Source: Rhodospirillaceae bacterium (GTDB taxonomy: Bacteria > Pseudomonadota > Alphaproteobacteria > SMXQ01). From it: a stretch of DNA of 55,939 nt. The translations under genes were made by a program, and so were the position numbers. The notes below the pieces were generated by a model. That model saw only the letters and a list, made by a program, of their open reading frames with translations, searched no databases and was not told the DNA's origin. Location of the stretch: assembly GCA_947474495.1 (NCBI GenBank), contig CANJIM010000009.1, positions 1 to 55,939 on the forward strand, written 5' to 3'. Below, in pieces: positions 2,523 to 29,184 of this stretch (within the stretch, counting starts at the first letter, position 1; each line of letters begins with the position of its first letter).

Positions 2523-2548
2523 ACTGACAGGATTTTGTGTTTTTTACG

Positions 2549-2581
2549 GTCCGGCGGAGTGACATCCGTCGGGCCTTTTTG
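2549..2581 (+). terminator. Rho-independent terminator after the hydratase-aldolase gene
   Basis: An 11-base-pair stem (GGTCCGGCGGA at 2549-2559 with TCCGTCGGGCC at 2566-2576, two G-T wobble pairs) has a six-base loop and is followed by TTTTT. It ends the aldolase transcript ahead of the convergent regulator gene. Confidence 0.8.
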
Positions 2582-2645
2582 CATTGGCGCGGGCAAAGGC
2601 CCAGCGGTCAGCGGCTCAGTTCGACCGCGCCGCTTTTGCGATCAT

Positions 2646-3500: not shown

Positions 3501-3508
3501 TGGTCAGA

Positions 3509-3519
3509 CCCCCCCCCCC
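3509..3519 (-). repeat. Homopolymer tract (C11/G11) in the leader of the IclR gene
   Basis: Eleven consecutive C on the plus strand read as G11 on the coding strand of the regulator and end nine bases before its ATG. The tract occupies the Shine-Dalgarno window. Homopolymer runs of this length are prone to slipped-strand mispairing, which would change ribosome binding-site spacing. Confidence 0.7.
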
Positions 3520-3622
3520 GCAATTCGTTAGTCGCGAAAATAACCCATTAAATTCAATCGACTATCTAATTATCATCATACGGGAGTTGAGTGTAGCGAG
3601 CAAGCGCGCGCGCCGCGCGCCA

Positions 3623-3662
3623 GATTTTCAAAAAACAAAACTATTTATGTTTTCTGAAAATC
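3623..3662. promoter_or_regulatory. Candidate IclR operator between regulator and transporter genes
   Basis: A near-perfect inverted repeat: the left arm GATTTTCAAAAAACA (3623-3637) pairs with the right arm TGTTTTCTGAAAATC (3648-3662) at 14 of 15 positions around a ten-base spacer. It lies in the divergent promoter region of the IclR regulator and the TctC gene. A related repeat precedes the ring-cleavage dioxygenase gene (6912-6941). Confidence 0.55.
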
Positions 3663-3723
3663 AGCTTAACGCTAGAAGCAAGTCTGTCATAGCGCAGATA
3701 AAAAAATGGGGAGAAAAGATCAG

Positions 3724-4773: not shown

Positions 4774-4899
4774 GATTCTAGGATGTCAACACTGGACGGC
4801 CGAACGATGGGCAGGCCAGTGACCGCGTGAGTCAACTTATCTCTATGTAACTGCGGATAGTCGCATAGGTCCGCCACAAGATTGGCGAGGGGAAAAGCT

Positions 4900-6876
4900 A
4901 TGTTTGATGGCGTAATTGAAGGCCTAATGGGCATTCTGACATGGAAAACCATGCTCTTGATGGTGGCCGGTGTCTGTATATCTAGCTTTTTTGCCGCGGC
5001 GCCCGGTATCGGCGGACTTCTGCTGCTATCCCTGTTGATGCCCTATGCCATGACTTTGCAGCCTTACGAGTTCATCGCGCTCATCATCGGTGCTGCGACC
5101 GTTGGCAACACCGCGTCGACGTTTACGTCAGTGTTGATAGGCGTGCCCGGCGGCGTCGGCTCGCAGGCAACGATTCTCGATGGCTATCCCATGGCCAAAC
5201 GCGGTGAGGCTAACCGCGCCTTTGGCGCAGCCTTTCTCGGCTCGGCCGTCGGCGCGGTGATCGGCGCTGCCACGTTCATTATATCTTTGCCTTTCTTCAG
5301 TCCTCTCGTGCTGAGCATGGGCTCTCCCGAATTCTTCATGTTCGTCTTGTGGGGCTTGACCTCGGTAGCCGTGCTGGGGGGCACTGAGCCAGTGAAAGGG
5401 TTGATCGCGGCGTGCGCCGGGCTGGCAATCGCTCTTATTGGCACCGACGCGCGCACAGGGATAGAACGCTTCACCTTCGGCAGCGCCTATCTATGGGACG
5501 GACTGGAGATTGTCATCATCGGCATGGGCGTTTTCGCAGTCCCGGAAATGTTCGAAATGGCGGTTAAGCGCACGCCAATTGCCAGCGTTCAGTCGCTCGG
5601 CAATGGTCTGGTCGAGGGTATGAAAGACGTCTTTCGCCATAAGTGGCTCGTAGTTCGCGCGAGCATGGTTGGCGTATGGATTGGCGTGCTACCTGGCCTC
5701 GGAAGCTCTGTTGCGGATTGGTTTGCCTACGCCCATGCCGTCCAGACCGAAAAAAACCCCGAAAGATTCGGTACGGGAGACGTCCGAGGCGTCCTGGCTA
5801 CGGAGAGCGCGAACAACGCCAAAGAGGGCGGCGATCTTATTCCGACGTTGCTATTCGGCATTCCGGGCGGGACGTCGATGGCTATTATCCTCGTCGGCCT
5901 CGTCGCTGTCGGCATTCAGCCTGGCGCGAGCATGCTGACGACTCAGCAGCCCTATATGTTTTCCATGATTTGGACGCTAGTGATCGCCAACTTCATGGCG
6001 ACCGGGTTAGCTTTGCTGTTCGCTAAGCAATTCTCCAAGGCCTGTATGGTACCTTTCTACTTTCTGGTGCCAACTGTTTTTCTGTTCTGTATCATCGGCG
6101 CCTTCGCAACCAATCTCGATTACAACGATCTGATCGCTTTTTTAGTATTCTCGGCTATCGGGATATTCATGAAGCGCTTCGGCTGGCCACGTCCGCCCCT
6201 GATTATAGCCGTCGTACTGGGGCCTCAACTTCAGCAGTATTTGTGGCTCTCGACTGATCGCTATGGCCAAGAATGGCTAACCCACCCGAGCATCATCATC
6301 CTAATGATCTTGATTGCGCTCACGGTTATTTGGCCTTTCTGGCGCATGCGCCGCAGCAAGAAAAAAGCGATCGATATGGACATTCAGCACGACGTGCGGC
6401 ATCCGACCGAGAATGGCAGCCTCATCATCTGCGGACTATTGTTGGCCGTGTTTTCCAGCATGATTTTGGTCGCCGCGAATAACTGGCCGATCTTTGCCTC
6501 ACTGTCCGTTTATTTCATTGGGACATTGGGTATCCTGCTTGTGCTTGTGCAGGTCTTTAGGGATGTGCGTTCAAAGCGCCTAATTGCGCTTGGGCTCAGC
6601 TCTCAAGAGGCCACAGTGGCTTGGACATGGGGCGAAGTCAGGCGCGAGCTCATCGCCGGCGCTTGGCTAATCGGACTCGTCGTCTCGCTGGTGCTGGTCG
6701 GCTTTCACATCACCTTCTTCTTCTATCCGCTGATTTACATTTGGATTTACTCCGGCGAATGGAAACGAGGCCTCTATATTTCGGTCAGTGCCGTCGGCCT
6801 CCTCTACCTTATTTTCGATTATATGCAGGGCGCGATCTGGCCGAAGCCGCTGCTGCTGCCCTTCCTCTATTCCTGA
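4900..6876 (+). CDS. Fused TctA-TctB permease of a tripartite tricarboxylate transporter
   Basis: This 658-residue inner-membrane protein begins with a TctA domain (about residues 1-500, ten or more hydrophobic segments) carrying TctA hallmarks: an APGIGGLLLLSLLMPYA stretch, GVPGGVGSQATILDGYPMA with KRGEANRA, and the second-half repeat FGIPGGTSMAIILVGL. The C-terminal 150 residues form about four more hydrophobic segments, the size and layout of the small TctB subunit, so the two subunits are fused. The ATG at 4900 follows GAGGGGAAAAGCT closely; an in-frame TTG at 4882 is less likely. It works with the receptor encoded just upstream and possibly with the two extra receptors at 12.4 and 14.9 kb. 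Confidence 0.88.
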   Translation: MFDGVIEGLMGILTWKTMLLMVAGVCISSFFAAAPGIGGLLLLSLLMPYAMTLQPYEFIALIIGAATVGNTASTFTSVLIGVPGGVGSQATILDGYPMAKRGEANRAFGAAFLGSAVGAVIGAATFIISLPFFSPLVLSMGSPEFFMFVLWGLTSVAVLGGTEPVKGLIAACAGLAIALIGTDARTGIERFTFGSAYLWDGLEIVIIGMGVFAVPEMFEMAVKRTPIASVQSLGNGLVEGMKDVFRHKWLVVRASMVGVWIGVLPGLGSSVADWFAYAHAVQTEKNPERFGTGDVRGVLATESANNAKEGGDLIPTLLFGIPGGTSMAIILVGLVAVGIQPGASMLTTQQPYMFSMIWTLVIANFMATGLALLFAKQFSKACMVPFYFLVPTVFLFCIIGAFATNLDYNDLIAFLVFSAIGIFMKRFGWPRPPLIIAVVLGPQLQQYLWLSTDRYGQEWLTHPSIIILMILIALTVIWPFWRMRRSKKKAIDMDIQHDVRHPTENGSLIICGLLLAVFSSMILVAANNWPIFASLSVYFIGTLGILLVLVQVFRDVRSKRLIALGLSSQEATVAWTWGEVRRELIAGAWLIGLVVSLVLVGFHITFFFYPLIYIWIYSGEWKRGLYISVSAVGLLYLIFDYMQGAIWPKPLLLPFLYS

Positions 6877-6911
6877 TCGGAGCGGATTTCCAGGCGCGCC
6901 GACGCGACCTT

Positions 6912-6941
6912 TCAAAAAGTAAAATCAATTTACATTTTTGA
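6912..6941. promoter_or_regulatory. Candidate operator upstream of the ring-cleavage dioxygenase gene
   Basis: TCAAAAA-GTAAA (6912-6923) faces TTTAC-A-TTTTTGA (6929-6941) across a five-base spacer: twelve paired positions with one bulged base. The half-site resembles that at 3623-3662 (TTTRYRTTTTYTGA-like), suggesting a common regulator. It ends about 24 bases before the first possible start codon of the next gene. Confidence 0.5.
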
Positions 6942-6964
6942 TCTGCAGGCGTTAAAAATACGAT

Positions 6965-8119
6965 ATGTTGACTGCGGCAAGTTTAGGAAAGTTTTCGTAT
7001 AAAACTATGGATACCAAGTCGCAGAAAATCTTAGAAGACTCATCCGTCGCGAATAACCCATCGCGATCGGGGCGGCCTTCTCGCGAAGAGGAGAAGGCGA
7101 GCCTCGCTCGCTACGACAGCGCTGCCTTGGAGCTGTTTCAAGCCGATCTGGCGCAGGCCCATATCCGCGGTCAGTGGCAGAACGAAGTTTTGCGTAAATC
7201 GGGCAATGCGGGCGTATGGAGCGACGGCAGCCTCGCGCCAAAGTCGGGCGGGCAGCCTTTCTTGTGGCAGTGGAGGCTCATCAAGGGCTTTCTCGAGCAA
7301 TCCTGTCTCGCGGTTCCCGAAAGCTACACCTCGCGCCGCTCTCTGATGTTTAACAATCCGGAGTTGGCGCGGGGCACCACCAATACGATCAATATGGGCG
7401 TGCAGATGATCCGCCCTGGTGAAATGGCTTGGGCGCATCGCCATAGCATCTCGGCGTTGCGATTCGTGATCAGCGGCGACCCGAATATCTTCACAGTGGT
7501 CGATGGCGTGCGCTGCGCGATGGAAACAGGCGACCTAATTCTGACTCCGCAATGGCGGTGGCACGACCACTATAACCAAACTGCCAATCCGGCTATTTGG
7601 CTCGACGTGCTAGATGGTCCAGTGATGGGCGCATTTAATCAGGTCGTTTTCGAATCCTATGGCGAGCGCCAGCAGCCGATCCTTAACTACGAGAGCGATG
7701 TCGCCGAGGATGGACGAGTCTTGCGCTTCCGCTTCCAGGATGTCGTCGCCGCGCTCGCAGCCATGCCGCAAGAGGCGGTCTCGGCTGCCGACGGTTTTGT
7801 CTACGAGTATCGTGATCCGGTCACCGCGCAGGCGCCGCTGCCGACGCTCGGTTGTCGGATGCTGCGCTTGGCGGCAGGTTTTTCTGGCGAAAACTGTCGG
7901 CGCAGCACGAGCGAAATCTATCACGTCGTGCGCGGCCACGGCCGCGCCATCATCGGCGATAGGGTTCTTGAATGGGGGCCGGGCGACTGCTTCGCGCTGC
8001 CCAACTGGAGTTGGCGCTCAATCCAGAACGCGTCCAGCGAGGAAGATGCCCTCCTGTTCGCGGCGCATGATCGACCGCTCATAGATATGCTCGGCCTCTA
8101 TAGAGAGGCGCGCGGCTAA
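6965..8119 (+). CDS. Gentisate 1,2-dioxygenase-family bicupin (ring-cleaving dioxygenase)
   Basis: This 384-residue two-cupin protein resembles gentisate, salicylate and 1-hydroxy-2-naphthoate dioxygenases. The N-terminal cupin has the iron ligands expected for the family: H158 and H160 in GEMAWAHRHS-ISALRFV, and H200 in TPQWRWHDHYN, about forty residues later as in known gentisate dioxygenases. The C-terminal cupin (about 280-375) keeps the fold but lacks the histidine set. The family opens an aromatic ring between carboxyl- and hydroxyl-bearing carbons using Fe(II) and O2. It heads the long plus-strand run of island genes. The start is uncertain: ATG 6965 has no clear ribosome binding site, and ATG 7007 is also possible. 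The substrate is not predictable from sequence alone. Confidence 0.82.
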   Translation: MLTAASLGKFSYKTMDTKSQKILEDSSVANNPSRSGRPSREEEKASLARYDSAALELFQADLAQAHIRGQWQNEVLRKSGNAGVWSDGSLAPKSGGQPFLWQWRLIKGFLEQSCLAVPESYTSRRSLMFNNPELARGTTNTINMGVQMIRPGEMAWAHRHSISALRFVISGDPNIFTVVDGVRCAMETGDLILTPQWRWHDHYNQTANPAIWLDVLDGPVMGAFNQVVFESYGERQQPILNYESDVAEDGRVLRFRFQDVVAALAAMPQEAVSAADGFVYEYRDPVTAQAPLPTLGCRMLRLAAGFSGENCRRSTSEIYHVVRGHGRAIIGDRVLEWGPGDCFALPNWSWRSIQNASSEEDALLFAAHDRPLIDMLGLYREARG

Positions 8120-8128
8120 ATAATGCGA

Positions 8129-8150
8129 CCGCCCGCTGAAATACGGGCGG
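8129..8150 (+). other. Intergenic hairpin between dioxygenase and HDO genes
   Basis: CCGCCCG (8129-8135) pairs with CGGGCGG (8144-8150) around an eight-base loop. No T run follows, so it is more likely an mRNA stability or attenuation element than a full terminator. Confidence 0.45.
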
Positions 8151-8179
8151 CCAAACATAGTGTAAGCGAGGAGATAACC

Positions 8180-8917
8180 ATGGCGACTGCCCTGAAATCC
8201 GATATCGACCTGAACGCCTTCGTCAAAAAAGTCAGCGCCATGGCGAGCGCTCAATTCGACTCCCAGCAGTACAAGCGGTTGCTGTCGACGCCGCTGACCG
8301 TCGCGCGGGCGCAGCGTTATACTTTGCAGAAAGCTTTTTGGAATATTAATCGCCGCGACTGCTGGGCGTTAGCTCAAGGCATAGCGCCTATGGACATCAA
8401 AAAGCTCGTGTGGGCGCACGAGGAGGACGAGCTTTCCGGCAACAAGGCGCGTGGGGTTGCCGATCATTACAGCCTCCAAGTCAAACAGTCTGAGCTGATC
8501 GGCCTTTCCCCGGAGGACTTCATGAACGAAAAGATCGGCGGCGAGACTCGGACGGTCATCCACGCCTGGTTGCATTTGTGCAAGCATAGTCCTTGGCAGA
8601 AGTCGCTGGCTGCCTGCATGGCGCTAGAGGTCAGCAATTCAACTGAATGGGTGCCAGCAGGCGGTATGTCCTATCGTATGGGCAAGAAGTATGAAAAAGA
8701 CCTGGGTATCCCGTTCGACAAGCAGATCAATGCCAAGGAGCACGCCGAGGTCGACGTCGATCACGGCCATATGCTGGTTCAGATTATGGAGATGTACGGT
8801 TCACAGCCCGGTACGCTCGACCTAATCATGGAAGGCTTGATCGAAAGCTGGGAGATCGAGCGAGTGTGGAAGGGTCTATTGGCCGACATGATGGCCGAGA
8901 TTCCCGTCACACAATAA
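8180..8917 (+). CDS. Heme-oxygenase-like diiron (HDO) protein, TenA/PqqC/CADD superfamily
   Basis: This 245-residue, all-helical protein has the third-core-helix motif HxxxDxxH at H188-AEV-D192-VD-H195, the metal-binding motif of heme-oxygenase-like diiron oxidases such as CADD and SznF. Plausible partners are E84, H96 and E150 (in MALEVSN), although the spacing between E84 and H96 is longer than in CADD. Such enzymes activate O2 for N-oxygenation, oxidative C-C cleavage or self-processing; PqqC-like members are cofactorless. The ATG at 8180 has GAGGAG six bases upstream; in-frame codons further upstream are part of the hairpin leader. It lies between the ring-cleavage dioxygenase and the three bicupins, so an oxidative step in the same pathway is inferred. 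The actual reaction is unknown. Confidence 0.72.
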   Translation: MATALKSDIDLNAFVKKVSAMASAQFDSQQYKRLLSTPLTVARAQRYTLQKAFWNINRRDCWALAQGIAPMDIKKLVWAHEEDELSGNKARGVADHYSLQVKQSELIGLSPEDFMNEKIGGETRTVIHAWLHLCKHSPWQKSLAACMALEVSNSTEWVPAGGMSYRMGKKYEKDLGIPFDKQINAKEHAEVDVDHGHMLVQIMEMYGSQPGTLDLIMEGLIESWEIERVWKGLLADMMAEIPVTQ

Positions 8918-8952
8918 ATCAATAATCCAGATCGAAAAGTGGATTGCCGCAC

Positions 8953-10059
8953 ATGACGGATCAGCCCCTCAGATACTTGCTCGATCCCTACGGAGATTGG
9001 GCAAAGGATGAGGGGATTCCGATCACCGAAGATGTCGCTGTCGATTTGCATGCGGTCGAGGTTGGCCCCTGGGCCCGTTGGGACGCTCGCGGAGGATTCG
9101 TGCACCTTCGTGGGCGCGGCGACTTCGTCGCTCTCCAGGTCGTCGATCTTCCACCCGGGGGGAAGACTGCGCCGCAGCGCCACTTGTACGATGAGGTGTT
9201 CTACGTTCTCTCGGGCCACGGCAGCGCCATCATCGAGACGGTGGATGGCCGTAAGGCGAGCTTTGAGTGGGGCCCGCGCAGCCTGTTTTCGCCGCCGTTG
9301 AACGCGCCCTTCCAACTGTTTAACGGCTCCGGCGTCGATTCGGCACGCATCGTCTCAGCTAACGATTTGCCGCTGATGATGAATATGCTGCACGCGCCGC
9401 ATTTCATCTTTGACAACGCCTGGAGCTTTTTGGACCGCGCAGGCAAGCAGTCTTATTACGCCGGCGAAGGAGACTTTCTCCCGCTCAAGCCTGGCAAGCA
9501 CATGTGGGAAACGAACTTCGTTCCAGATCTCGGCACGTTCGCGTTGCCAGACTGGGAAGCGCGCGGCACCGGCAGCAAGAACATCAAGTTTATTCTGGCT
9601 GATAGCGTCATGCATGCGCACACCTCGGAGATGGCGGTGGGCACCTACAAGAAGGGCCATCGCCACGGCGCCGGCGCGCATGTCTTCGCGGTTAGCGGAA
9701 CCGGGTACACGCTCATGTGGTACGATGGTGACAAAGAATTCACGCGTCATGAATGGCGGCACGGTTTTGTGTTCGCGCCGGCCGATGGCATGTTCCATCA
9801 GCATTTTAACACCAGCGGCGATCCGGCGCGATATTTGGCGCTTTCATTCGGCAGCCATCGTTATCCCGTTCTTCAACGCAAGAGGGACCGCAAGCAGAAT
9901 CCTGAAGCTAGCGTCAAGGATGGCGGATTGCAGATCGACTATGAAGATCAGGATCCGAGCATCCATGCGATCTGGCTGCGTGAGCTGGGTAAAACAGGCG
10001 TGCCGTCGCGCATGGGGCATATATTTGATGAAACACGAATGAAGAATGAGATGTCCTGA
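8953..10059 (+). CDS. Tandem bicupin paralogue 1
   Basis: This 368-residue protein has two cupin domains. Cupin 1 (about 55-130) has H77 and E81 in QRHLYDEVFYVLSGHG but lacks a histidine in its second motif (SLFSPPLNAPFQLFNG). Cupin 2 (about 220-300) keeps H236, H238 and H243 in YKKGHRHGAGAH and H282/H284 in MFHQHFNTS, so it should bind a metal. There is no signal peptide. It is the first of three adjacent paralogues, beginning 36 bases after the HDO gene. The ATG at 8953 is preferred over the TTG at 8944; neither has a strong ribosome binding site. Cupins of this kind can be dioxygenases, isomerases or decarboxylases; I do not recognise a characterised homologue. Confidence 0.75.
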   Translation: MTDQPLRYLLDPYGDWAKDEGIPITEDVAVDLHAVEVGPWARWDARGGFVHLRGRGDFVALQVVDLPPGGKTAPQRHLYDEVFYVLSGHGSAIIETVDGRKASFEWGPRSLFSPPLNAPFQLFNGSGVDSARIVSANDLPLMMNMLHAPHFIFDNAWSFLDRAGKQSYYAGEGDFLPLKPGKHMWETNFVPDLGTFALPDWEARGTGSKNIKFILADSVMHAHTSEMAVGTYKKGHRHGAGAHVFAVSGTGYTLMWYDGDKEFTRHEWRHGFVFAPADGMFHQHFNTSGDPARYLALSFGSHRYPVLQRKRDRKQNPEASVKDGGLQIDYEDQDPSIHAIWLRELGKTGVPSRMGHIFDETRMKNEMS

Positions 10060-10060
10060 C

Positions 10061-11161
10061 ATGGCCGAATCTACTGTCAAATTCCTTCTTGATCCTTACA
10101 TGGACTGGGCGCGCGGTGAGGGAATACCGCTAATCGATGAATTCGGCGTCGATCTCCTGTCTTTGGAGACCAAGTCTTGGCCGCGTCTCGGCTCTGGCTG
10201 CGGCGGCGCAGTCGTCAACCTCAAGGGGCGCGGCGACTATATGACCGTGTTCCTTATGGAGATTGGGCCGGGCGGCAAGTCGGATACGCAGCGACATCTC
10301 TATGAGGAGGTTTTCTATGTGCTGTCGGGCCATGGCAGCGTCACGATCGAGACGTCAGATGGGCGGCGTCATAGCTTCGAATGGGGGCCGCAGAGCCTAT
10401 TCTCGCTGCCGCTCAACGCGTCCTATGTAATTTATAACGGTTCAGGGCGAGAGGCGGCCCGACTCGCCTCGGCGAATAATTTTCCGCTGATGATGAATGT
10501 GTTTCACAACGAGGCGTTTATCTTCGGCAATCCCTGCAAGTTTCCCGAGCGCGAAGGGCCGACGGGCTACTTTAGCGGTGAAGGCGAGCTGACGGCGATC
10601 CGTCCCGGACGCAATTTATGGGAGACGAGCTTCGTCCCTGACGTCGGCGCCTTCGAGTTGATGGCATGGGAAGCGCGCGGGGCAGGCTCGTCAAATATGC
10701 AGTTCATCCTGGCCGACGGCTGCATGGGCGCGCATACCTCTGAAATGCCGGTCGGCACCTACAAGAAGGGGCATCGCCACGGACCCGGACTGCATATTTT
10801 CATGGTGCATGGCGAAGGTTACAGCTTGCTGTGGTACGAGGGAGATAAGGATTTTCATCGCATAGACTGGCGACACGGTATGCTTTTCGCGCCGCCAGAA
10901 AACATGTTCCATCAGCATTTTGACACCAGCCCGACGCCTGCGCGTTATCTCGCTATCGGCTTTGGCTCGAAGCGCTATCCGGTTGTCTATGCTCGGCGGG
11001 CCGGTTCAGAGAACCAGCGCTCCGACGTGAGCATTAAAGAGGGCGGCCGTCAGGTCGAGTACGAGGACCAGGATCCGCGTATCCATGCCATGTGGCTGGG
11101 CGAGTTGAAGAAAACCGGCGTTAAGTCCGGTATGAGTAAAATTTTCCCTGAATCCAATTGA
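10061..11161 (+). CDS. Tandem bicupin paralogue 2
   Basis: This 366-residue bicupin is clearly related to both neighbours along its whole length (for example QRHLYEEVFYVLSGHGSV, SFEWGPQSLFSLPLNA and GTYKKGHRHGPGLHIF). The second cupin again has HxH-x4-H plus FHQHFDTS. The first cupin retains H and E in QRHLYEE but no histidine in motif 2. The ATG at 10061 follows the previous stop codon by one base, indicating translational coupling; an in-frame ATG at 10046 overlaps the previous gene. Sequence drift between the copies is large enough that they are probably old duplicates with separate roles, perhaps subunits of one hetero-oligomer. Confidence 0.75.
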   Translation: MAESTVKFLLDPYMDWARGEGIPLIDEFGVDLLSLETKSWPRLGSGCGGAVVNLKGRGDYMTVFLMEIGPGGKSDTQRHLYEEVFYVLSGHGSVTIETSDGRRHSFEWGPQSLFSLPLNASYVIYNGSGREAARLASANNFPLMMNVFHNEAFIFGNPCKFPEREGPTGYFSGEGELTAIRPGRNLWETSFVPDVGAFELMAWEARGAGSSNMQFILADGCMGAHTSEMPVGTYKKGHRHGPGLHIFMVHGEGYSLLWYEGDKDFHRIDWRHGMLFAPPENMFHQHFDTSPTPARYLAIGFGSKRYPVVYARRAGSENQRSDVSIKEGGRQVEYEDQDPRIHAMWLGELKKTGVKSGMSKIFPESN

Positions 11162-11163
11162 GA

Positions 11164-12285
11164 ATGGATGATCAAAGCATGAACGATATGAGCGAGCCGC
11201 GCTTTTTGGTCGATGCCTATCTCGACTGGATCGCGAAAGAGAAAATCCCGGTCGTCGAGGACTTTTGCGTCGATCTGATGAAAGTCGAGACAGGCCCCTG
11301 GAGCCGTCTCGGGGCCGATGCGGCCTACGTCCACATGAAGGGGCGTGGCGATTTCATATCTATTCTGCTGATAGACTTGCCGCCGGGCGGCAAGTCGGCG
11401 CGTCAGCAGCATCTCTACGAGGAAGTGTTCTACGTGCTGTCCGGATACGGCACCGTCGTCGTTGAGGATCCGCAGGGCCGTGAGCACAGTTTCGAGTGGG
11501 GCCCGCGCAGCCTGTTTTCTCTGCCGCTCAACGCGCCCTACCGCTTCTTCAACGGCTCGGGTCGTGATCGCGTGCGAATCGCCTCGACCAACAACTTGCC
11601 GATGATCATGAACAGCTTCCGCAACGAGGGGTTCATATTTGAGAACAAGTCGATCTTTCCCGAGCGCTTCGGCAAGGAAGGCTACTTTGCCGGCGAGGGT
11701 GAATTGGTTCCGACCCACGGCGGCCGCAAGATGTGGGAGACAAACTTCGTTCCCGATCTCGGTGAATTCGTGCTGAATAAGTGGAACACCCGCGGCGCCG
11801 GTAGCGCCAATATGGTGTTCAGCCTCGCCGAAGGCACGATGCATGCCCATTGCTCCGAAATGTCTACAGGTACTTACAAGAAGGGCCACCGCCATGGTCC
11901 CGACTTCCACGTCTTTATCGTCAAGGGACAGGGCTACTCTCTTTTCTGGCATGAGGGAGAGGACATGAAGCGGTACGACTGGCATGAGGGCTGCGTGTTC
12001 GCACCAACCGACATGATCTGGCACCAGCACTTCAACACGGGCAAGGAGCCTGTACGCTACATGGCGACCGCCTATGGCAGTAGTCGTTATCCCTTCTCCA
12101 ACGAGAAGCGCCGAATCAAGCTTGGCGTCGATGTTAGCGTTAAGAAGGGTGGCGCACAGATCGAGTATGAGGACCAGGATCCGCGGATTCATCGCATGTT
12201 CTTAGAGGAATTAACGAAAAATGAGGTTCAGTGCCGCATGAATGAATTCATGGACGAAAGTATTCTATTAAAAAAAGATACTTAG
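11164..12285 (+). CDS. Tandem bicupin paralogue 3
   Basis: This 373-residue bicupin is the third of the set. Cupin 1 has QQHLYEEVFYVLSGYG, so the QRH of the other two has become QQH while the metal-type H and E remain. Cupin 2 has YKKGHRHGPDFHVF and IWHQHFNTG. The C-terminus GAQIEYEDQDPRIHRMFLEE is shared with its paralogues. It begins two bases after the preceding stop; ATG 11164 is used here, and ATG 11179 is also possible because GGATGA precedes it. A gap of about 110 bases follows before the next gene. The function is not known to me; its position implies the same pathway as the HDO and ring-cleavage enzymes. Confidence 0.75.
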   Translation: MDDQSMNDMSEPRFLVDAYLDWIAKEKIPVVEDFCVDLMKVETGPWSRLGADAAYVHMKGRGDFISILLIDLPPGGKSARQQHLYEEVFYVLSGYGTVVVEDPQGREHSFEWGPRSLFSLPLNAPYRFFNGSGRDRVRIASTNNLPMIMNSFRNEGFIFENKSIFPERFGKEGYFAGEGELVPTHGGRKMWETNFVPDLGEFVLNKWNTRGAGSANMVFSLAEGTMHAHCSEMSTGTYKKGHRHGPDFHVFIVKGQGYSLFWHEGEDMKRYDWHEGCVFAPTDMIWHQHFNTGKEPVRYMATAYGSSRYPFSNEKRRIKLGVDVSVKKGGAQIEYEDQDPRIHRMFLEELTKNEVQCRMNEFMDESILLKKDT

Positions 12286-12395
12286 CACCTCAAACCCAAG
12301 CATGGTCCGAAGAGCTATCGCAAAAAAGTCAGGGAATTCATCGTCCAAGAAAAGCTGCAATAAAATTAAAAAAGCTTAGATCTAGGGAGGGCGTA

Positions 12396-13736
12396 ATGAA
12401 GTACTCAATGATAAGTGCGTTTTATTACATCGTCGCTTTCGCCGCAGCGGCTGTGTTTTCGTCTGGCGCCGTCGCTCAAAGCATTGACTTCCGCGGTAAG
12501 CGAATCGACGTCATCATGGGTTCCGCGTCTGGCGGTGGGACCGATACCACTACTCGCTTGGTTGGACGATTCTTGACTAAGTATCTGCCGGGTAATCCTG
12601 AGATGAACTACCGCAACCTGCCTGGCGGCCAAGGCACCAAGGCTCTCAACTATTTTGCAGAATCGGCGCGGCCCGATGGCCTGACATGGATCGGCGGCAG
12701 CAGTTCGCACATCGACCCAAATAGCTTGCTTAAGCCAGCGATTCATTACGATCCGACCAAATTCAATTACATCGGCGGCGCCTCGCGAGGGGGGTCGATC
12801 ATTTTCATGCGTAAGGAAAATCTGAAGAAGCTCACCGATCGGTCGCTACCGCCAGTGATAGTCGGCGAGCTCGACGGCAACCGCAGTTGGGCCCAGATGG
12901 TGTTGTGGGGGGCTGACGCCCTCGACTGGAACATTAAGTTCGTCATCGGCTATCCAGGGACTTCGTTTTTGCTGTTGGCTATCCGGCGAGGCGAGATTGA
13001 TATGATGGGCACGTCGAATCTGACGCAGCTGCGCGATATGTTGAAGACAGGTGACTTCGTCGGCGTCGCTCAAATGGGCGATACTAGTTTAACTAATGGA
13101 TTAGTGACGAGCCGCTCGACCTTCCCGGATATCCCGGTGATGGAAGCGATGGTAGACGGCAAGCTTGTAGGTATCCAAAAGGACGCCTTCGATTTCTGGG
13201 TTGGCCTCAATGCTCTAGACAAGTGGTACGCATTGCCGCCAGGCACACCGCAGGCGGTGATCAATACCTACCAGACTGCTTACGGCAACCTGGTCAAGGA
13301 TCCCGAGTTTCTCAAACTTGCTCAGATGGTCAGCGAAGACTTCGAGCCGATGAGTGGTCCGACAATCCAACACATCGTCGCGAAGACAAGTTATCCGCCG
13401 AAGAAAATTACCGACTACATCGAGAGCATGAAGTGGAAGAACGGCCTCCCTGCGGAAGGGCTCTCCGACGAGGAACTCGCCAAGCTCGCTAGAGAAAAAG
13501 GGTTCGACAAGATGGGCTCGTTCGAAGCCGTTCTGAAGCAAGTCGGTGACGGTGGCCGCAATATCGTTTTTTCTGTCGCCGAGAAAGATGTGACAGCGGA
13601 CGTAAGCTCGAGCGGTACCAACGTTATGATTGCAGGGCAGAAGGTCGAACGCCTCGCGCTTAAGGCCGGCATGGTCTGCGAGATCAGCCATCCAGGCGGC
13701 GAGAAGCAGGCTGCAACTGCTGTCCATTGTAAATGA
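12396..13736 (+). CDS. TctC-type solute receptor with C-terminal extension
   Basis: This 446-residue protein has a signal peptide (to about SSGAVAQS) and a TctC/Bug domain (about 28-345) with SASGGGTDTTTRLVGRFL and LPGNPEMNYRNLPGGQG. It is closer to the receptor at 14882 than to the one at 3724. Residues about 345-446 form an extension not usual for TctC. It has a helical KWKNGLPAEGLSDEEL part, then a beta-like end with KDVTADVSSSGTNV and two cysteines (MVCEIS, AVHCK). GGGAGGG precedes the ATG. No TctA/TctB gene adjoins it, so it may feed the fused permease at 4900 or act as a sensor-type receptor. A hairpin follows the gene. Confidence 0.82.
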   Translation: MKYSMISAFYYIVAFAAAAVFSSGAVAQSIDFRGKRIDVIMGSASGGGTDTTTRLVGRFLTKYLPGNPEMNYRNLPGGQGTKALNYFAESARPDGLTWIGGSSSHIDPNSLLKPAIHYDPTKFNYIGGASRGGSIIFMRKENLKKLTDRSLPPVIVGELDGNRSWAQMVLWGADALDWNIKFVIGYPGTSFLLLAIRRGEIDMMGTSNLTQLRDMLKTGDFVGVAQMGDTSLTNGLVTSRSTFPDIPVMEAMVDGKLVGIQKDAFDFWVGLNALDKWYALPPGTPQAVINTYQTAYGNLVKDPEFLKLAQMVSEDFEPMSGPTIQHIVAKTSYPPKKITDYIESMKWKNGLPAEGLSDEELAKLAREKGFDKMGSFEAVLKQVGDGGRNIVFSVAEKDVTADVSSSGTNVMIAGQKVERLALKAGMVCEISHPGGEKQAATAVHCK

Positions 13737-13743
13737 CTGTGTG

Positions 13744-13780
13744 GGGCGCCAGCTAAAACCGCTGGCGCCCTGTAGTTTTA
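13744..13780 (+). terminator. Hairpin after the second TctC gene
   Basis: A perfect ten-base-pair stem (GGGCGCCAGC at 13744-13753 with GCTGGCGCCC at 13761-13770) around TAAAACC is followed by TGTAGTTTTA. The T run is broken, so it is a moderate terminator or attenuator. Confidence 0.6.
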
Positions 13781-13825
13781 GTTCGAGGCGCCAGGCCAGC
13801 ACTTGATTTTTTTAAGGAGCAGAAA

Positions 13826-14809
13826 GTGGACCACATCAATTTTCCCTATAGATCGACTAGCCATCTAGCCCTGATGCACATCGTCGCCGAATGCGGCGCT
13901 TTTGAGCGCCAGAATTTGGATGTGGATTATGACAAGCCGATTGGTAGAGAGGACGCTCATCGTCTCGTGCCCACTGGCGAGATCGAATTCACTAGCGGCA
14001 ACCACGTTTCGACCTATGCGGCACGCGTGCGCGGAGATAACTGGGTTTATCTCGGTCAGTCAGTTAGCCTTAACCACCTTAACCTCGTGGTGCGGGCCGA
14101 CTCGGAGATTAACAAACTTGAAGATATGCGTAAGAAGAAGTTCGGCTCGAAGGGCCGCCACCCCGGCCTTAACGATTGGCTCTATCTCAAGCAGCATGGT
14201 CTCGATGTCGATCGTGACGACGTCGAGTTCCTGCAGTTTGGTAGCGTCACCAATGATTCGGAGCGCAAGAAGCTGAACTTGATTGAGGCGGTTAAGACTG
14301 GAGCTGCAGACGGCTGTTTTCTCTCTCAGCCCAAGCGCGAGTTCGCCGAACGCGAGGGGCTGAAGATCATTCCGCTTGAGTCTCAGCCGATGGTGTTTTT
14401 CGCAACGGTCTCGAGCAGTTTGCCGTTCGTCCAGAAGCATCCCGATATCGCCAAGCGCATGCTTAAGGCGCTGATCGACGGTATCGCCTATATCAAGACG
14501 CATCCGCAAGAGTCCATCAGGATTCTGATGGAGAAGCACACCAAGGAAGGCAAGTTGGACCTCAATACGGCGACCAAGCTCTACAACGAGTTAGCGCCTA
14601 CATTGGAGCCCAAGCTCTATCCGTCGCTCGAAGCGGTCTTTAATGTCTACGAGGAAGCGAAGCGCCAGAACAAGGAGGCGGAGAAAATCCACCCGCTCGC
14701 TCTGTGGGACTTCCATCTGCTGCGTGAAATCGATGACTCCGGTTACATCGACGATCTCTATGCCAAGTACAACATGAAGGCTCAGGCGCGGGCATTCCCA
14801 GTGAGTTAG
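13826..14809 (+). CDS. NMT1/THI5-type periplasmic-binding-fold protein lacking a signal peptide
   Basis: This 327-residue protein has the two-lobed fold pattern of NMT1/THI5-like and ABC nitrate/sulfonate-type binding proteins (INFPYRSTSHLALMHIVAE, ADSEINKLEDMRKKKFGSKG, VSSSLPFVQKHPDIAKRML). It starts at GTG 13826, with AAGGAG six bases upstream, and neither this start nor the open frame just upstream encodes a signal peptide, so it should be cytoplasmic. Cytoplasmic relatives include THI5-type enzymes and 4,5-dihydroxyphthalate decarboxylase, which shares the fold; a decarboxylase role would suit an aromatic-acid pathway. A lost signal peptide on a former transporter receptor is the other reading. 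Fold confidence is good; the function is open. Confidence 0.65.
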   Translation: MDHINFPYRSTSHLALMHIVAECGAFERQNLDVDYDKPIGREDAHRLVPTGEIEFTSGNHVSTYAARVRGDNWVYLGQSVSLNHLNLVVRADSEINKLEDMRKKKFGSKGRHPGLNDWLYLKQHGLDVDRDDVEFLQFGSVTNDSERKKLNLIEAVKTGAADGCFLSQPKREFAEREGLKIIPLESQPMVFFATVSSSLPFVQKHPDIAKRMLKALIDGIAYIKTHPQESIRILMEKHTKEGKLDLNTATKLYNELAPTLEPKLYPSLEAVFNVYEEAKRQNKEAEKIHPLALWDFHLLREIDDSGYIDDLYAKYNMKAQARAFPVS

Positions 14810-14881
14810 CGCATGGGCGGGTGCCCATTCACGGGACGACCGGCATGCAATAAATTCATAAGAGCGGGTAGACTGACGATC

Positions 14882-15934
14882 ATGACACCATTGAAAATCG
14901 TGGCTGCGACCATAGCAGCAGTCGGCATGACCGTGTCGGCAGCCGCGGCGAACGAGATTAGCTTCAGGGGAAAGACAATTTCTCTGATCATTAACTCGAC
15001 GCCGGGCGGCGGAACGGACACGGCCGCGCGCCTAACCGGCAATGCGCTGGCGAAGTACCTGCCTGGCAACCCGACGATCATCTATCGTAATTTGCCGGGC
15101 GGTGGCGGCCTCAAGGCAAACAATTATTTTGCCAACCAAGTGCCGCCGGACGGAATGACGCTGCTGTCGGGCTCGCGCACACAGATAAGCCCGGCAAAGC
15201 TGCGTGGGCCACAAGTCCAGTATGATCCGTCGAAGTACGAATTCATCGGCGGAGACGCCAACCTCGGCACCGTGATGTTGATCCGCAAGGAAGACGTGCC
15301 GAGTCTGACAGACCCAAAGGCGCAGCCGTTGGTCTACGGCGACATCGACGGAACGCGCTCCGGTCTTCTGATCAGCTTATGGGCCAAGGAATACCTCGGC
15401 TGGAACATCCGCTGGGTCATCGGCTATTCGGGCACCTCGACGATGCTGATGGCTTTGCAGAGCGGTGAGTTGCACATGGCCGCCAACCAGAATGCCTTTA
15501 CCCTGGGCCCGCTTCTAAAGGCCGGCAGGTTCGTCGGCATGGCGCAGCTCGGAGCTCTTGACGATAACGGCAATCGCGTGCGCCGCGACGCCTTTGCCGA
15601 TGTGCCTTTGCTGGACGAGTTGATCCTGCCGAAGCTGACGGAACAGCAAAAATCCGTTTATCTCGGCATGCAGGCGGATTTCGCTATCAACAAATGGTTG
15701 GCCTTGCCGCCCGGGACGCCCAAGCCGATGGTCGCCGCCTACCGGGAGGCTTACATGAAGTCTGTCAAGGATGAGGACTTCCTGGCGATGGCCACCAAGC
15801 AGATCGACGAAGATTTCACCCCGCTCAGCGGCGTGCAGGTCGCCAAGATCGTGGCTGATCTCGCCTTGATCACCGACGCAGAGATCGAATTTGTCAATCA
15901 GCTGCGGAGAAAGAACAATCTGCCGGTCGAATGA
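14882..15934 (+). CDS. TctC-type solute receptor (third of the island)
   Basis: This 350-residue protein has a signal peptide (MTPLKIVAAT to about VSAAAAN) and a TctC domain starting ISLIINSTPGGGTDTAARL, with LPGNPTIIYRNLPGGGGLKA. It is recognisably paralogous to the protein at 12396 but lacks its long C-terminal extension, ending at VNQLRRKNNLPVE. The ATG at 14882 is chosen because the signal peptide starts there; the open frame reaches back to an ATG at 14813 that would put 23 polar residues in front. With the receptor at 3724 this makes three receptors for one permease in the island. A strong hairpin follows. Confidence 0.83.
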   Translation: MTPLKIVAATIAAVGMTVSAAAANEISFRGKTISLIINSTPGGGTDTAARLTGNALAKYLPGNPTIIYRNLPGGGGLKANNYFANQVPPDGMTLLSGSRTQISPAKLRGPQVQYDPSKYEFIGGDANLGTVMLIRKEDVPSLTDPKAQPLVYGDIDGTRSGLLISLWAKEYLGWNIRWVIGYSGTSTMLMALQSGELHMAANQNAFTLGPLLKAGRFVGMAQLGALDDNGNRVRRDAFADVPLLDELILPKLTEQQKSVYLGMQADFAINKWLALPPGTPKPMVAAYREAYMKSVKDEDFLAMATKQIDEDFTPLSGVQVAKIVADLALITDAEIEFVNQLRRKNNLPVE

Positions 15935-15944
15935 CGATCTCGAT

Positions 15945-15996
15945 TTCCTGGAGGAAAGAGCCGCAAGGACTGGTCTCCGGCTCTTTCCTCCAGGAA
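15945..15996. terminator. Perfect 19-bp inverted repeat after the third TctC gene
   Basis: The arm 15945-15963 (TTCCTGGAGGAAAGAGCCG) is the exact reverse complement of 15978-15996, with a 14-base loop. It begins eleven bases after the TctC stop codon. No T run follows on the plus strand, so a simple intrinsic terminator is not assured; a stability hairpin or bidirectional terminator is also possible. Confidence 0.6.
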
Positions 15997-16157
15997 GAGT
16001 GAAGCCTTGCGAGACGAGAGGCGTTATCGATATGGTTGGCGATATCGGCGCTTTTCGCGTGCCTTAAAAGCGTGACCGCTGCCGTCGGACTGGGGCGTCG
16101 CCGCCTCGGCGCAGCAAGTGGCCTGATATCTCCTCTGCGTTTGGTAGGATTGCATCC

Positions 16158-16544
16158 ATGAGCTTTCGTCCTCTTTACGATTATATTTTAGTCGAGCCGG
16201 CGCAGGCCGCGGCCAGCGCCTCGTCGGTCCTGTTGCCGGAAACTGTGCAGAAGAAGCCGCAGCAGGGATGCGTTTTGGCGATCGGACGCGGCCGGCGTGA
16301 CAAAGACGGAAAGCGCGCCATGCCGCAAGTCGCTGTAGGTGACAAGGTGATCTACGGAGCCTGGACCGGTATTGAGGCCAAGATCAAAGGCGTGGATTGT
16401 CTGATCATGAAGCAAGGAGATGTGCTGGGCGTGGTCAGCGGCGCCGGCGAGGTGGTTGTCCGCGATCGCTTGGGGGCCGGGGCCAACACGGCCACGTCCT
16501 GCGTGGTCGATCATGTCCATGGCCTGGACTGCTGCGATGACTGA
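16158..16544 (+). CDS. Divergent GroES (Cpn10)-like co-chaperonin with Cys/His tail
   Basis: This 128-residue protein carries a Cpn10 domain over residues 1-95: FRPLYDYILVEP matches Gro[14 protein letters not shown], and the mobile-loop region reads SSVLLPETVQKKPQQG, ending with LIMKQGDVLGVV. The housekeeping GroES of this chromosome is at 27551-27838, so this is a second, divergent copy. The tail (about 97-128) is extra and contains C115, H119, H121, C125 and C126 before a DD end, recalling the metal-binding tail of Helicobacter HspA. The gene overlaps or adjoins the UbiD gene. A dedicated helper for folding or metal supply to island enzymes is inferred; no companion GroEL is nearby. Confidence 0.75.
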   Translation: MSFRPLYDYILVEPAQAAASASSVLLPETVQKKPQQGCVLAIGRGRRDKDGKRAMPQVAVGDKVIYGAWTGIEAKIKGVDCLIMKQGDVLGVVSGAGEVVVRDRLGAGANTATSCVVDHVHGLDCCDD

Positions 16545-16569
16545 GAAGAAAGACGAGAGGGCGAACGCC

Positions 16570-18042
16570 ATGACGAGCAAGGGGTCGGCGCAAAACGATG
16601 GCCGCAACGTTTCGCTGGAGGCGATGGCCGACCTGCGCGTCTTTTTGCGCGAGGCGGAACAGGCGGGCGAGTTGGTACATGTGCATGGCGCAGATCCCGA
16701 ATTGGAGATGGGAGCGCTGTTCGAGTTGAGCCATGAGCATCTCTACCCCCCCGTGCTGCTGTTCGACCAAGTGAAGAACTGCGCGCCTCAATTTCGAGTC
16801 CTATCTAACGTGCGTACGGCGCGGTTCATGGTTGGCGAGCTCACGCTCGATGCAGTCAAGGCCTATCGCAACCGCCCGAAGGAAAAGAAGGCGCCGATCC
16901 CGCCGCAGGAGGTGAATTATGGCCCCGTCATGGAGAACGTGATCGAGGGCGATGCAGTCGACGTGCTGAAATTTCCAGCGCCGCGTTGGCATGCTAAGGA
17001 TGGCGGCCGCTACATCGGCACTGAATGCGTCGTCATCTGCAAGGACCCAGATAGCGATTGGGTCAATCTGGGCACCTATCGCGTGATGGTGCATGACAAG
17101 ACCACACTGGGCGTGTTCATCGAGCCGGGCAAGGATGGCGACGCGATCCGCAGGAAATATTGGGCTAAGGGCCAGCCCTGTCCGATGGTCATCAGCGTCG
17201 GCCAGGCGCCGATCCTCGGCGTCGTGGCCTCGGTTGCGGCGAAGAATGGCGAGTCGGAATATGCGATCGCAGGCGGGCGCGTCGGCCGCCCCATCCGCAC
17301 TATCCGCGGCAAAGTGACGGGGCTGCCTATTCCTGCCGACGCTGAACTGGTGTTCGAGGGTTTCATGCCGGCGCCGGAGGTCGATGCGCGTACCGAGGGG
17401 CCGTTCGGCGAATGGCCGGGTTACTACGCGTCTGACGAGCGACCGGAGCCAGTCCTGCAAGTTAAGGCGATTTATCATCGCGACGATGCCATCATCATCG
17501 GTCAACCGCCGACGATGCCGACATATCCTGGCCGCCAGATCAAAATCCCGCGCGTTGCCGCTCTCTGGGATGCGATCGAAGCGGCGGGTGTTCCGGAGAT
17601 CCGTGGCGTGTGGAAGTTGCTGGGTGGTGGTTCCCGCTTTATCGACGTGATCGCCATCAAACAACTTCATCCGGGGCATGCCAAGATGGCGGGTCTGGTT
17701 GCAGCCGGCTGTGGCCAATCCTACATGAATCGCTTGATCATCATCGTCGACGAGGATATCGACATCACGAATCCTGCCGAGGTGATGTGGGCGGTGGCGT
17801 CGCGCTGGGATCCCAAGAGTCAAACCGACCTGATCGATGGTTGTTGGACTGGCTACATTGATCCGCGGCTGTCGCCCGACAAACGCGCGAACGGCGATAT
17901 CACTACGAGCCGCATGATCATTTATGCGGTTCGCCCCTATCACTGGCGTGACGGATTTCCTGAGGTCAATATGGTTGATCGCGACCTGGCTGCGCAAGTC
18001 CGCGGCAAGTGGCAGGATCAGCTTCCGTTCCTTCGGAAATAG
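16570..18042 (+). CDS. UbiD-family prenylated-FMN-dependent decarboxylase
   Basis: This 490-residue protein has the UbiD length and catalytic set. R171 lies in LGTYRVMVHDK, and E276 and E281 lie in RTEGPFGEWPGYY, matching almost number for number the Arg173-Glu277-Glu282 triad of fungal Fdc1. UbiD enzymes reversibly decarboxylate aromatic or alpha,beta-unsaturated acids using prenyl-FMN, which a UbiX-type prenyltransferase must supply; none is encoded in this window. The ATG at 16570 has GAGAGGG nine bases upstream; an ATG at 16537 overlaps the end of the GroES-like gene and has no ribosome binding site. It is the last gene of the island before the IS6 element. The substrate is unknown. Confidence 0.87.
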   Translation: MTSKGSAQNDGRNVSLEAMADLRVFLREAEQAGELVHVHGADPELEMGALFELSHEHLYPPVLLFDQVKNCAPQFRVLSNVRTARFMVGELTLDAVKAYRNRPKEKKAPIPPQEVNYGPVMENVIEGDAVDVLKFPAPRWHAKDGGRYIGTECVVICKDPDSDWVNLGTYRVMVHDKTTLGVFIEPGKDGDAIRRKYWAKGQPCPMVISVGQAPILGVVASVAAKNGESEYAIAGGRVGRPIRTIRGKVTGLPIPADAELVFEGFMPAPEVDARTEGPFGEWPGYYASDERPEPVLQVKAIYHRDDAIIIGQPPTMPTYPGRQIKIPRVAALWDAIEAAGVPEIRGVWKLLGGGSRFIDVIAIKQLHPGHAKMAGLVAAGCGQSYMNRLIIIVDEDIDITNPAEVMWAVASRWDPKSQTDLIDGCWTGYIDPRLSPDKRANGDITTSRMIIYAVRPYHWRDGFPEVNMVDRDLAAQVRGKWQDQLPFLRK

Positions 18043-18083: not shown

Positions 18084-18883
18084 GGGATTGTCAGGTTAAG
18101 TGTTGGGGCCGAGCAAATTCTGTGAGCGCAAAGCTCACGCACTAGCGACGGACGCGGCCATCCATCCCGCCATGGCGTCGGCCCGGAATGTGCGCAGTGT
18201 TGTTCGTGAAATCAGGTGACGCTGGAGGTTGAAGAGATTGTAGATGGCGCCATGCGTGGCAACGAAGCGCTGGGCTTCGCCCTGCGATTTGAAGCGCTGC
18301 ATCTTGCGCTCTCGCCGTCGCACTGAGAGATGCGAATTCTCGGCTCGATTGTTGTCGCGCAAACGACCCGGGCGATGACGTGAACGGCCGCCCAAAGTAT
18401 CGAGCGCCGCCCCGTAAGAGGCCAGCCCGTCGGTCACTATTCCATCCGGCGCATAGCCCTGCTTGCGCATTAATTTACGTAGCAATTTGAGCGCTGCGCG
18501 TTTGTTGCGGCGCTTCTGAACCAGCACGTCCAGAACTTCGCCTTCCTGGTCGACAGCCCGCCGCATGAACATGTGGCGTCCGTTGATACGGACGACCATT
18601 TCATCGAGATGCCAGACAGAACCTGGGCGAGGGCGCATTCGACGAATGTTCGCCGCAATGGCTCCGCCGAATTTCTCCGCCCAACAGCGGACCGTCTCGT
18701 AGGAGACGTCGATCCCGCGCTCGGCGAGAATCTCCTCTACATCCCGCAAACTCAGGGTGTATTTGAAATACAGCCAAACGGCTTGGCGGATGATTTCGGG
18801 TGGGAAGCGGTGTCTTTTATAGGAGATGGTTTTCATCCCGCAAGCTTATATCAGAGACAAGTTGCAGTTAGACTGACAGCACC
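18084..18883 (-). mobile_element. IS6-family insertion sequence
   Basis: An element of about 800 bases, a normal IS6 size, enclosing a full-length transposase. Its proposed ends are imperfect inverted repeats: reading inward, GGGATTGTCAGGTTAAGTG on the left and GGTGCTGTCAGTCTAACTG on the right, sharing GG...TGTCAG..TAA.TG. The eight bases outside each end (GACCAAAA and AATGGCAT) differ, so no target duplication is seen. It sits exactly between the catabolic island and chromosomal backbone genes. Confidence 0.75.
18135..18836 (-). CDS. IS6-family transposase
   Basis: This 233-residue transposase has an N-terminal helix-turn-helix (YTLSLRDVEEILAERGIDVSYETVRCW) and the IS6 DDE core: D in SVWHLDEMVV, D in IVTDGLASYG and E in NNRAENSHLSVRRRER. 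It is full length with no frameshift, so the element may be active. IS6 elements move by replicative transposition and can join flanking DNA to new sites, which suits a position at the edge of an acquired region. Confidence 0.92.
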   Translation of the reverse strand: MKTISYKRHRFPPEIIRQAVWLYFKYTLSLRDVEEILAERGIDVSYETVRCWAEKFGGAIAANIRRMRPRPGSVWHLDEMVVRINGRHMFMRRAVDQEGEVLDVLVQKRRNKRAALKLLRKLMRKQGYAPDGIVTDGLASYGAALDTLGGRSRHRPGRLRDNNRAENSHLSVRRRERKMQRFKSQGEAQRFVATHGAIYNLFNLQRHLISRTTLRTFRADAMAGWMAASVASA

Positions 18884-18891
18884 AATGGCAT

Positions 18892-20109
18892 TCACCTTTG
18901 CTGCAGCGCGGGGTGGTCGACCAGTTCATCGATCTCGGCGTCGGTCATGCCCGACTGGCCTTCGAGCGCCTTGAGCAGCGAATCGATATGCTCGCGTGGA
19001 ATGTCGCGGGTGATGAAAACGATCTTGCTGCGGTGATCGTCGCTCGGCCATTGGTCGAGCCAAACCACCGGATGGAAGATGTGCTGCACGCCATGCAGCA
19101 CCGCTGGCTGGCCCGGCCGCTCGGCAATATTGAGCAGTCCTTTCACGCGCAGCAGGTCGTCGCCTTTGTTGGCGACGAGCAATTCGAGGAACATCGTGAA
19201 GGCGACGCCGCCGATCGGCTTGTCGCGAATGATGCTGTAAGAACGAATGTGGTCGTCGTGGCGGTTCACGTCGAGGGCTGAATGGTCATGTTCGTGATGG
19301 TCATGATCATGGTCGTGATGATCGTGGCCATCGTCATGACCATCGTCATGCCCATGGTGATCGTGCCCATGATCGTGGTCGTGGTCATGCCCATGGTCGT
19401 GACCGCCTTCATAAGCTTCGGCGCGAAGCCAGGCGTTTACGTCAGCCGACTTGACCGACACGTTGTAATAGCCGGCCGACAGCAGCTTGACGGGGTCGGC
19501 CATGGCCTCGTCGGGCGTGAGATACAGCGCCGCGGGATTGAGCAGCCAGAGGCGCTTGCGCAATTCAGCGGTCTTCGCTTCCGGCAGATCGGTCTTGCTG
19601 ATGACGAGACGGTCGGCGACCGCCGCCTGCTTGAGCGCCTCAGGATGGGCATCGAGGCTGGCGAGGCCGTTCACCGCGTCGATCACGGTGATCACGCTGT
19701 CGAGGGCAAAATTGGCGGCGATCAGCGGATCGTTGAGCAAGGTGTGCAGAATGGGGGCGGGGTCGGCCAACCCCGTGGTCTCGATCACCACGCGCTTGAA
19801 CCAGGGCACCTGGCTTTTCACGCGCTTCATGAACAGCTCGCGCATGGTGTCGATCAGATCGCCGCGAATCGTGCAGCACAGACAGCCGCTCGACAGCTCG
19901 ACGAAATTTTCGCCGCTTTTTTCGACCAGCAAGTGATCGAGGCCCACCTCGCCGAACTCGTTGATGATCACCGCCGTGTCCTTCAGCGCCGGATCGCGCA
20001 ACAGGCGGGAGAGCAGGGTGGTCTTGCCGGCGCCGAGGAACCCCGTCAGCACGGTGACGGGAATGATGTCGGAGATGGGCGAGGCGGGAGGCTGTACGGA
20101 GGGGGCCAC
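18892..20109 (-). CDS. COG0523 (CobW/ZNG1-type) GTPase metallochaperone
   Basis: This 405-residue G3E-family GTPase has a Walker A motif TGFLGAGKTTLL, the metal-binding GCLCC motif (CxCC), and the guanine-recognition SKTD. A long run of His and Asp follows (about residues 235-275, HDHGHDHDHDHGHDHHGHDD and more), then the C-terminal CobW domain. Such proteins deliver zinc to client enzymes under zinc limitation. GTG 20109 is taken as the start, preceded by AGGAAA; the open frame continues much further upstream but only across the antisense of the next gene. A Zur-like box 32 bases upstream supports control by zinc. Confidence 0.87.
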   Translation of the reverse strand: MAPSVQPPASPISDIIPVTVLTGFLGAGKTTLLSRLLRDPALKDTAVIINEFGEVGLDHLLVEKSGENFVELSSGCLCCTIRGDLIDTMRELFMKRVKSQVPWFKRVVIETTGLADPAPILHTLLNDPLIAANFALDSVITVIDAVNGLASLDAHPEALKQAAVADRLVISKTDLPEAKTAELRKRLWLLNPAALYLTPDEAMADPVKLLSAGYYNVSVKSADVNAWLRAEAYEGGHDHGHDHDHDHGHDHHGHDDGHDDGHDHHDHDHDHHEHDHSALDVNRHDDHIRSYSIIRDKPIGGVAFTMFLELLVANKGDDLLRVKGLLNIAERPGQPAVLHGVQHIFHPVVWLDQWPSDDHRSKIVFITRDIPREHIDSLLKALEGQSGMTDAEIDELVDHPALQQR

Positions 20110-27550: not shown

Positions 27551-27838
27551 TTATTCGACGATGCCCATGATGTCGGACTCTTTGATGATCAGCATTTCGT
27601 CGCCGTCCACCTTCACTTCGGTGCCCGACCACTTGCCGTACAGGACGCGATCGCCCTTCTTGACTTCCATCGGGACGAGCTTGCCGTCCTCGCCACGCGC
27701 GCCGGTACCGACGGCGATGACTTTGCCCTCCATGGGCTTTTCCTTGGCGGTGTCGGGGATAATGATGCCGCCGGCGGTCTTGGTCTCAGCCTCGAGGGGC
27801 TTCACCAGCACGCGGTCGTGCAGGGGCCTGAACTTCAT
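27551..27838 (-). CDS. groES: Co-chaperonin GroES
   Basis: This 95-residue Cpn10 starts [18 protein letters not shown] and has the mobile loop [16 protein letters not shown] and the end [12 protein letters not shown]. The ATG at 27838 is the conserved start; the in-frame ATG 15 bases upstream (MESQT) is less likely. It caps the GroEL ring and is transcribed first in the operon. Confidence 0.96.
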
Positions 27839-27922: not shown

Positions 27923-27949
27923 TTAGCACTCCTGCTCTTTGAGTGCCAG
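27923..27949 (-). promoter_or_regulatory. CIRCE element (HrcA operator) of groESL
   Basis: TTAGCACTC at 27923-27931, a nine-base spacer and GAGTGCCAG at 27941-27949 match the CIRCE consensus TTAGCACTC-N9-GAGTGCTAA with two changes in the right arm. It lies about 85 bases upstream of groES, so HrcA should repress the operon until heat stress. Confidence 0.9.
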
Positions 27950-29130: not shown

Positions 29131-29184
29131 GCGGCGATTTTGCGCCTTTAGGCCGCGGCCTGACAAGAGGCCGAACGGCCTAAA

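Follow-up and report, generated by a model that had tools for sequence, protein, structure and literature searches.

A GroES paralogue with an HxH...CC-type tail at its C-terminus is found in 8 of the 11 genomes searched in one alphaproteobacterial order (one family, five genera), including the genome analysed here, and in one Bradyrhizobiaceae MAG. In the window, which is the whole stretch of 55,939 nucleotides that was analysed, this paralogue, groES2, stands directly before ubiD. Judged from sequence comparison, groES2 is quite possibly a specialised co-chaperonin with a metal-binding tail, which would have been imported with an aromatic-degradation island and would serve metal/prFMN enzymes, although our preference for this reading is tentative. 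The initial annotation of the window had suggested that the protein may aid folding or metal/prFMN loading of the island enzymes, and this suggestion is partly supported: the tail is conserved, whereas recurrent linkage with ubiD was not found.

Gene, core and genome context of groES2

The groES2 ORF starts with ATG, is intact and encodes 128 aa (Table 1). The Cpn10 family PF00166 matches residues 3-93 with an E value of 3.2e-24 (85.2 bits versus a cut-off of 21.1), a score that excludes chance for the core, and PDB GroES entries match the protein by sequence as well. The divergent Cpn10 described in the initial annotation is therefore real, and ubiD is indeed the next gene. groES2 is also the second GroES of the genome, as had been claimed, since a canonical copy lies beside the only GroEL; the two GroES genes and the single GroEL gene of this MAG (2.99 Mb, 96% complete) are all on the window's contig. 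A CIRCE element precedes the canonical groES, and none was found upstream of groES2.

The groES2 core has diverged strongly, with an end branch of 2.24 changes per column in the core tree (97 columns), an unusual composition and an identity of just 37-47% to the other tailed GroES proteins. Its mobile loop reads SASSVLL versus TAGGIII, of which AGGIII is kept in the relatives, so that the hydrophobic tripeptide is retained and the GG lost. Judging from the residues, this degenerate loop may weaken GroEL binding, and together with the long branch it may be compatible with drift or with altered GroEL affinity. An AlphaFold2 single-chain model built from a 9-row alignment was of low confidence (pLDDT 51.8), with the tail disordered.

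Table 1. Features of the window that bear on groES2 (positions refer to the window).
Feature	Position	Strand	Remarks
Island genes upstream of the pair: gentisate-dioxygenase-like cupin, haem-oxygenase-like enzyme, three double cupins, TctC-like and NMT1 binding proteins	6965..15934	+	
Perfect 19-bp inverted repeat, 14-nt loop	15945..15996	+	between TctC-like gene end and groES2
groES2 (128 aa), a divergent Cpn10 carrying the Cys/His tail at its C-terminus	16158..16544	+	ORF, PF00166 match
Tail codons S114-D128 of groES2 (SCVVDHVHGLDCCDD)	16497..16541	+	H119, C125 and C126 unchanged across all nine tailed proteins
ubiD, prFMN-type decarboxylase, second gene of the pair	16570..18042	+	alternative start 16537
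IS6-type element, 14-bp ends	18089..18878	-	transposase 18135-18836; right border of the island
groEL, sole GroEL found in the genome	25895..27538	-	
Canonical groES, 95 aa, no tail	27551..27838	-	beside groEL
CIRCE (HrcA site, 2 mismatches)	27923..27949	-	upstream of canonical groES

The Cys/His tail

The groES2 protein ends in CVVDHVHGLDCCDD, and the five residues listed in the initial annotation (C115, H119, H121, C125 and C126, i.e., two His and three Cys) are present in the added tail as described. In an alignment of the nine tailed GroES proteins, the window's tail contains HVHGLDCC and the eight relatives show HxH...CC; C115 is not conserved in the relatives. Seven of the ten other genomes of the order (G002 and G005-G010) encode a second GroES, 124-125 aa long, whose C-terminus follows the pattern HxHxPxxDCC, the endings being HNHLPGSDCC, HTHVPGMDCC, HTHIPGMDCC, HSHVPDMDCC, HTHIPGTDCC or HAHVPGTDCC. 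The tailed GroES of the Bradyrhizobiaceae MAG, G392, ends in HDHIHDSGCCDD (L159:9850-10245). As the tail recurs in relatives, chance is excluded as its source, and the tail conservation on which the initial annotation had staked its proposal was found.

Such tails occur in 9 of the 160 distinct GroES-like ORFs read, namely in the window and the eight relatives. The exact motif HxHxPxxDCC-stop was met in 1 of 385 class genomes, a sample that leaves out most of the tailed family members, and full-length profile matches in the class samples came from the window's order only; these class searches used strict score limits and may overlook tailed proteins whose core has diverged as far as that of groES2. 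No Cys/His tail was found among 80 GroES loci in a viral contig scan. Plasmid tblastn matches apparently covering the tail (Ensifer, H3; Neorhizobium, H9) were rejected because they ran on past the annotated stop, the GroES proteins themselves being tailless.

It is unlikely that the tails of the order, of the window copy and of G392 have separate origins and do not form one family. Five label changes are needed on the core tree and the endings differ (DCC stop versus CCDD), yet a tree of so few columns is poorly resolved, an AU test did not reject a single clade (p = 0.225), and the tails align at HxH...CC.

Tailed groES loci in relatives and origin of the window copy

Regarding the loci in relatives, the gene order CIRCE - tailed groES - groES - groEL was found in all four such loci scanned (G002, G005, G008 and G010), and the neighbourhood of the tailed gene in these loci is syntenic with the window's. 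The slot that the tailed gene occupies there is held in the window by a TauD-family gene (28099-29166, minus strand), which lies between groES and hflX; the same is seen in G001, a genome of the same genus that has neither a tailed GroES nor the window's UbiD clade. Because the TauD-family gene fills this slot in both genomes, the window's groES2 was most likely regained together with the island. A simple move of groES2 out of this genome's own groESL locus is disfavoured, as G001 also has the TauD-family gene there and groES2 shares the codon bias of the island. In G392 the tailed GroES is a lone gene with no CIRCE, and no ubiD was found in the 20 kb read around it. Its core nests inside the GroES clade of the window's order in the core tree, which suggests that the tailed co-chaperonin gene may have reached G392 by transfer.

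The groES2-ubiD pair and the island

The groES2 stop at 16544 and the ubiD ATG at 16570 are spaced by 25 bp, and an alternative in-frame ATG for ubiD, at 16537, lies before that stop and would make the two genes overlap. The inverted repeat upstream of groES2 may set the groES2-ubiD pair apart as its own transcription unit; the terminator scan gave the repeat no score, and no T run follows it. The island extends from about 1.5 to 18 kb and, in addition to the genes in Table 1, includes a DHDPS-family protein, IclR and TctA. Island genes have GC3 values of 0.66-0.75 versus 0.77-0.86 in cobW, tatD, mazG, groEL, hflX and others to the right, and groES2 (0.73) and ubiD (0.72) both group with the foreign genes. 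Taken as a whole, the aromatic-degradation island (window 1566-18042) shows a GC3 of ~0.70 versus ~0.83 in the flanking core genes, and it is probably a horizontally acquired block. The same kinds of island genes recur around ubiD in related genomes, the island of G395 being among the most similar. The three double cupins stand in tandem (window 8944-12282), and their family is greatly expanded in the order, with 5-20 copies per genome. At the right border, no 8-bp target repeat was found at the IS6-type element. Just beyond it lies a CobW/COG0523-type GTPase (window 18892-20100, minus strand) with a very long HDHGHDHDH-type stretch, a potential second metal-handling protein beside the island.

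These features also bear on the view that groES2 is a hitchhiker that the island picked up and that is now drifting, its position beside ubiD being an accident of assembly. The very long branch, the unusual composition, the degenerate mobile loop, the IS6-type element at the island border and an adjacency found only once would all fit such a history. It is nevertheless judged improbable, since the ORF is intact, the H and CC of the tail are kept, and the close spacing to ubiD suggests a selected operon.

Linkage and co-occurrence with UbiD

The window's UbiD was scanned against the genomes of 84,980 species, each represented once. No Cpn10 was found near ubiD in the 76 closest loci, up to 10 kb on each side and 1.15 Mb in total; of the 33 loci with an identity of at least 56%, 31 had 1 kb or more available upstream and 30 had this downstream. 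The recurrent linkage with ubiD that the initial annotation had looked for thus fails as adjacency. Elsewhere, the tailed gene heads a groES-groEL operon or stands alone, not beside ubiD, and the groES-ubiD adjacency is so far unique to the window.

A weaker link holds at the genome level. In the UbiD tree, the window falls into a 14-row clade (support 99/99) from 13 genomes. Nine of these genomes (G000, G002, G005-G010 and G392) have a tailed GroES and four (G395, G397, G399 and G404) do not; in the other direction, the clade is present in all nine genomes with a tailed GroES, so the tail was found only in UbiD-clade genomes. The genomes G391, G393, G394, G396, G398 and G401 are the same as G006, G007, G009, G005, G010 and G008, respectively, with identical coordinates and scores. 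Within the order, the tail is present in 8/8 genomes with the window's UbiD clade versus 0/3 without it, which a simple count puts at 1 in 165 by chance, kinship being uncorrected and the pattern having been noticed after the fact. The best UbiD of the untailed order genomes is 45% identical in G001 and 61-62% in G003 and G004, outside the window's clade. At the thresholds used, both the tail and the window's UbiD are missing from 60 relatives of G392. This co-occurrence rests on no more than three independent contrasts. Double-cupin copy number also separates the genomes (9-20 copies in tailed versus 0-7 in untailed ones), and therefore UbiD is not the sole candidate partner.

The tailed GroES may alternatively be a general metal- or redox-buffering co-chaperonin of the lineage, unrelated to UbiD in particular, the match with the UbiD clade then stemming from common ancestry and from an aromatic lifestyle, rich in metal enzymes, that these genomes share. 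This alternative is plausible but somewhat doubtful. In the relatives, the tailed gene heads a groESL operon under CIRCE, which suggests a general rather than a UbiD-specific role, and both the parallel in double-cupin numbers and the four tailless genomes of the UbiD clade favour it. The window copy, however, lies outside the groESL locus, paired with ubiD and free of a CIRCE, and the single holder outside the order, G392, also has the window's UbiD clade.

Known systems and proposed role

In Helicobacter pylori, the Cys/His tail of HspA binds nickel, and the protein acts as a hydrogenase chaperone (PMC4671568, PMC5116745). This tail contains 8 His and 4 Cys, forms a disulfide lasso and holds two Ni per monomer (PMC5116745, PMC4671568). 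HspA with its domain B resembles groES2 in that a GroES core is followed by a short C-terminal stretch with many His and vicinal Cys residues, including HxH and CC motifs. The likeness to Helicobacter drawn in the initial annotation is apt as an analogy, and groES2 may work in an HspA-like manner. HspA is the sole GroES and has the richer tail, in contrast to groES2, an alphaproteobacterial second GroES with fewer His and Cys. For these reasons groES2 is not classed as HspA, and the likeness of the tails is taken as analogy only. More than one GroES per genome is also known from rhizobia and other Alphaproteobacteria, but the additional copies read from plasmids and the class carry no Cys/His tail. 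Mycobacterial GroEL1 is reported to have a metal-binding His-rich C-terminus (PMC10170517); it is comparable as a chaperonin with a metal-binding tail, but is the Cpn60 partner and not a Cpn10 co-chaperonin.

One paper confines the Cys/His extension of GroES to Helicobacter (PMC4671568), and another confines it to H. pylori and H. acinonychis (PMC5116745). A comparable extension is now seen in an alphaproteobacterial order, on a second GroES and in genomes that encode many UbiD and cupin enzymes, which provides a natural system for testing metal loading of a GroEL client by a co-chaperonin tail. A literature search on GroES with UbiD, or on Cys/His-rich GroES in Alphaproteobacteria, yielded one relevant item, a report in which the UbiD PA0254 was obtained in soluble form with GroES/GroEL co-expression (PMC3650080). 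groES2 is also a candidate helper for UbiD enzymes, of which at least one was thus obtained in soluble form.

For the preferred reading of a specialised co-chaperonin, the predicted mechanism starts from a GroES ring subunit whose flexible His/Cys tail would bind a transition metal. The protein would cap the genome's one GroEL, by itself or as part of mixed rings, and the tails would hold metal near the folding chamber, where island enzymes, UbiD first and double cupins second, could be helped to fold and to take up metal. In the window, groES2 would have left heat-shock control and come to be expressed along with its presumed client. This reading is favoured because H119, C125 and C126 are invariant in nine GroES proteins despite the low identity of groES2 to the others and its long branch, and because the tail is absent from all other GroES read and, by profile and pattern, from class relatives. 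The genome-level co-occurrence with UbiD, including the outside holder G392, the island GC3 shared by groES2 and ubiD, and the precedents of PA0254 and HspA point the same way. It is disfavoured by the lack of ubiD adjacency elsewhere, by the tailless genomes with the UbiD clade, of which G395 has a very similar island, by the CIRCE control of the tailed gene in relatives, and by the degenerate mobile loop. A narrower version appears rather unlikely, namely a metallo-co-chaperonin dedicated to prFMN/UbiD or double-cupin enzymes, whose tail would deliver metal to clients in the GroEL chamber and which would have evolved outside Helicobacter and been recruited into a UbiD operon. As a separate observation on the UbiD proteins, several relatives (L027, L031, L037 and L056) carry, near the gene of the nearer UbiD clade, another UbiD type that is only distantly similar (~28-30% identity) and is perhaps a partner subunit.
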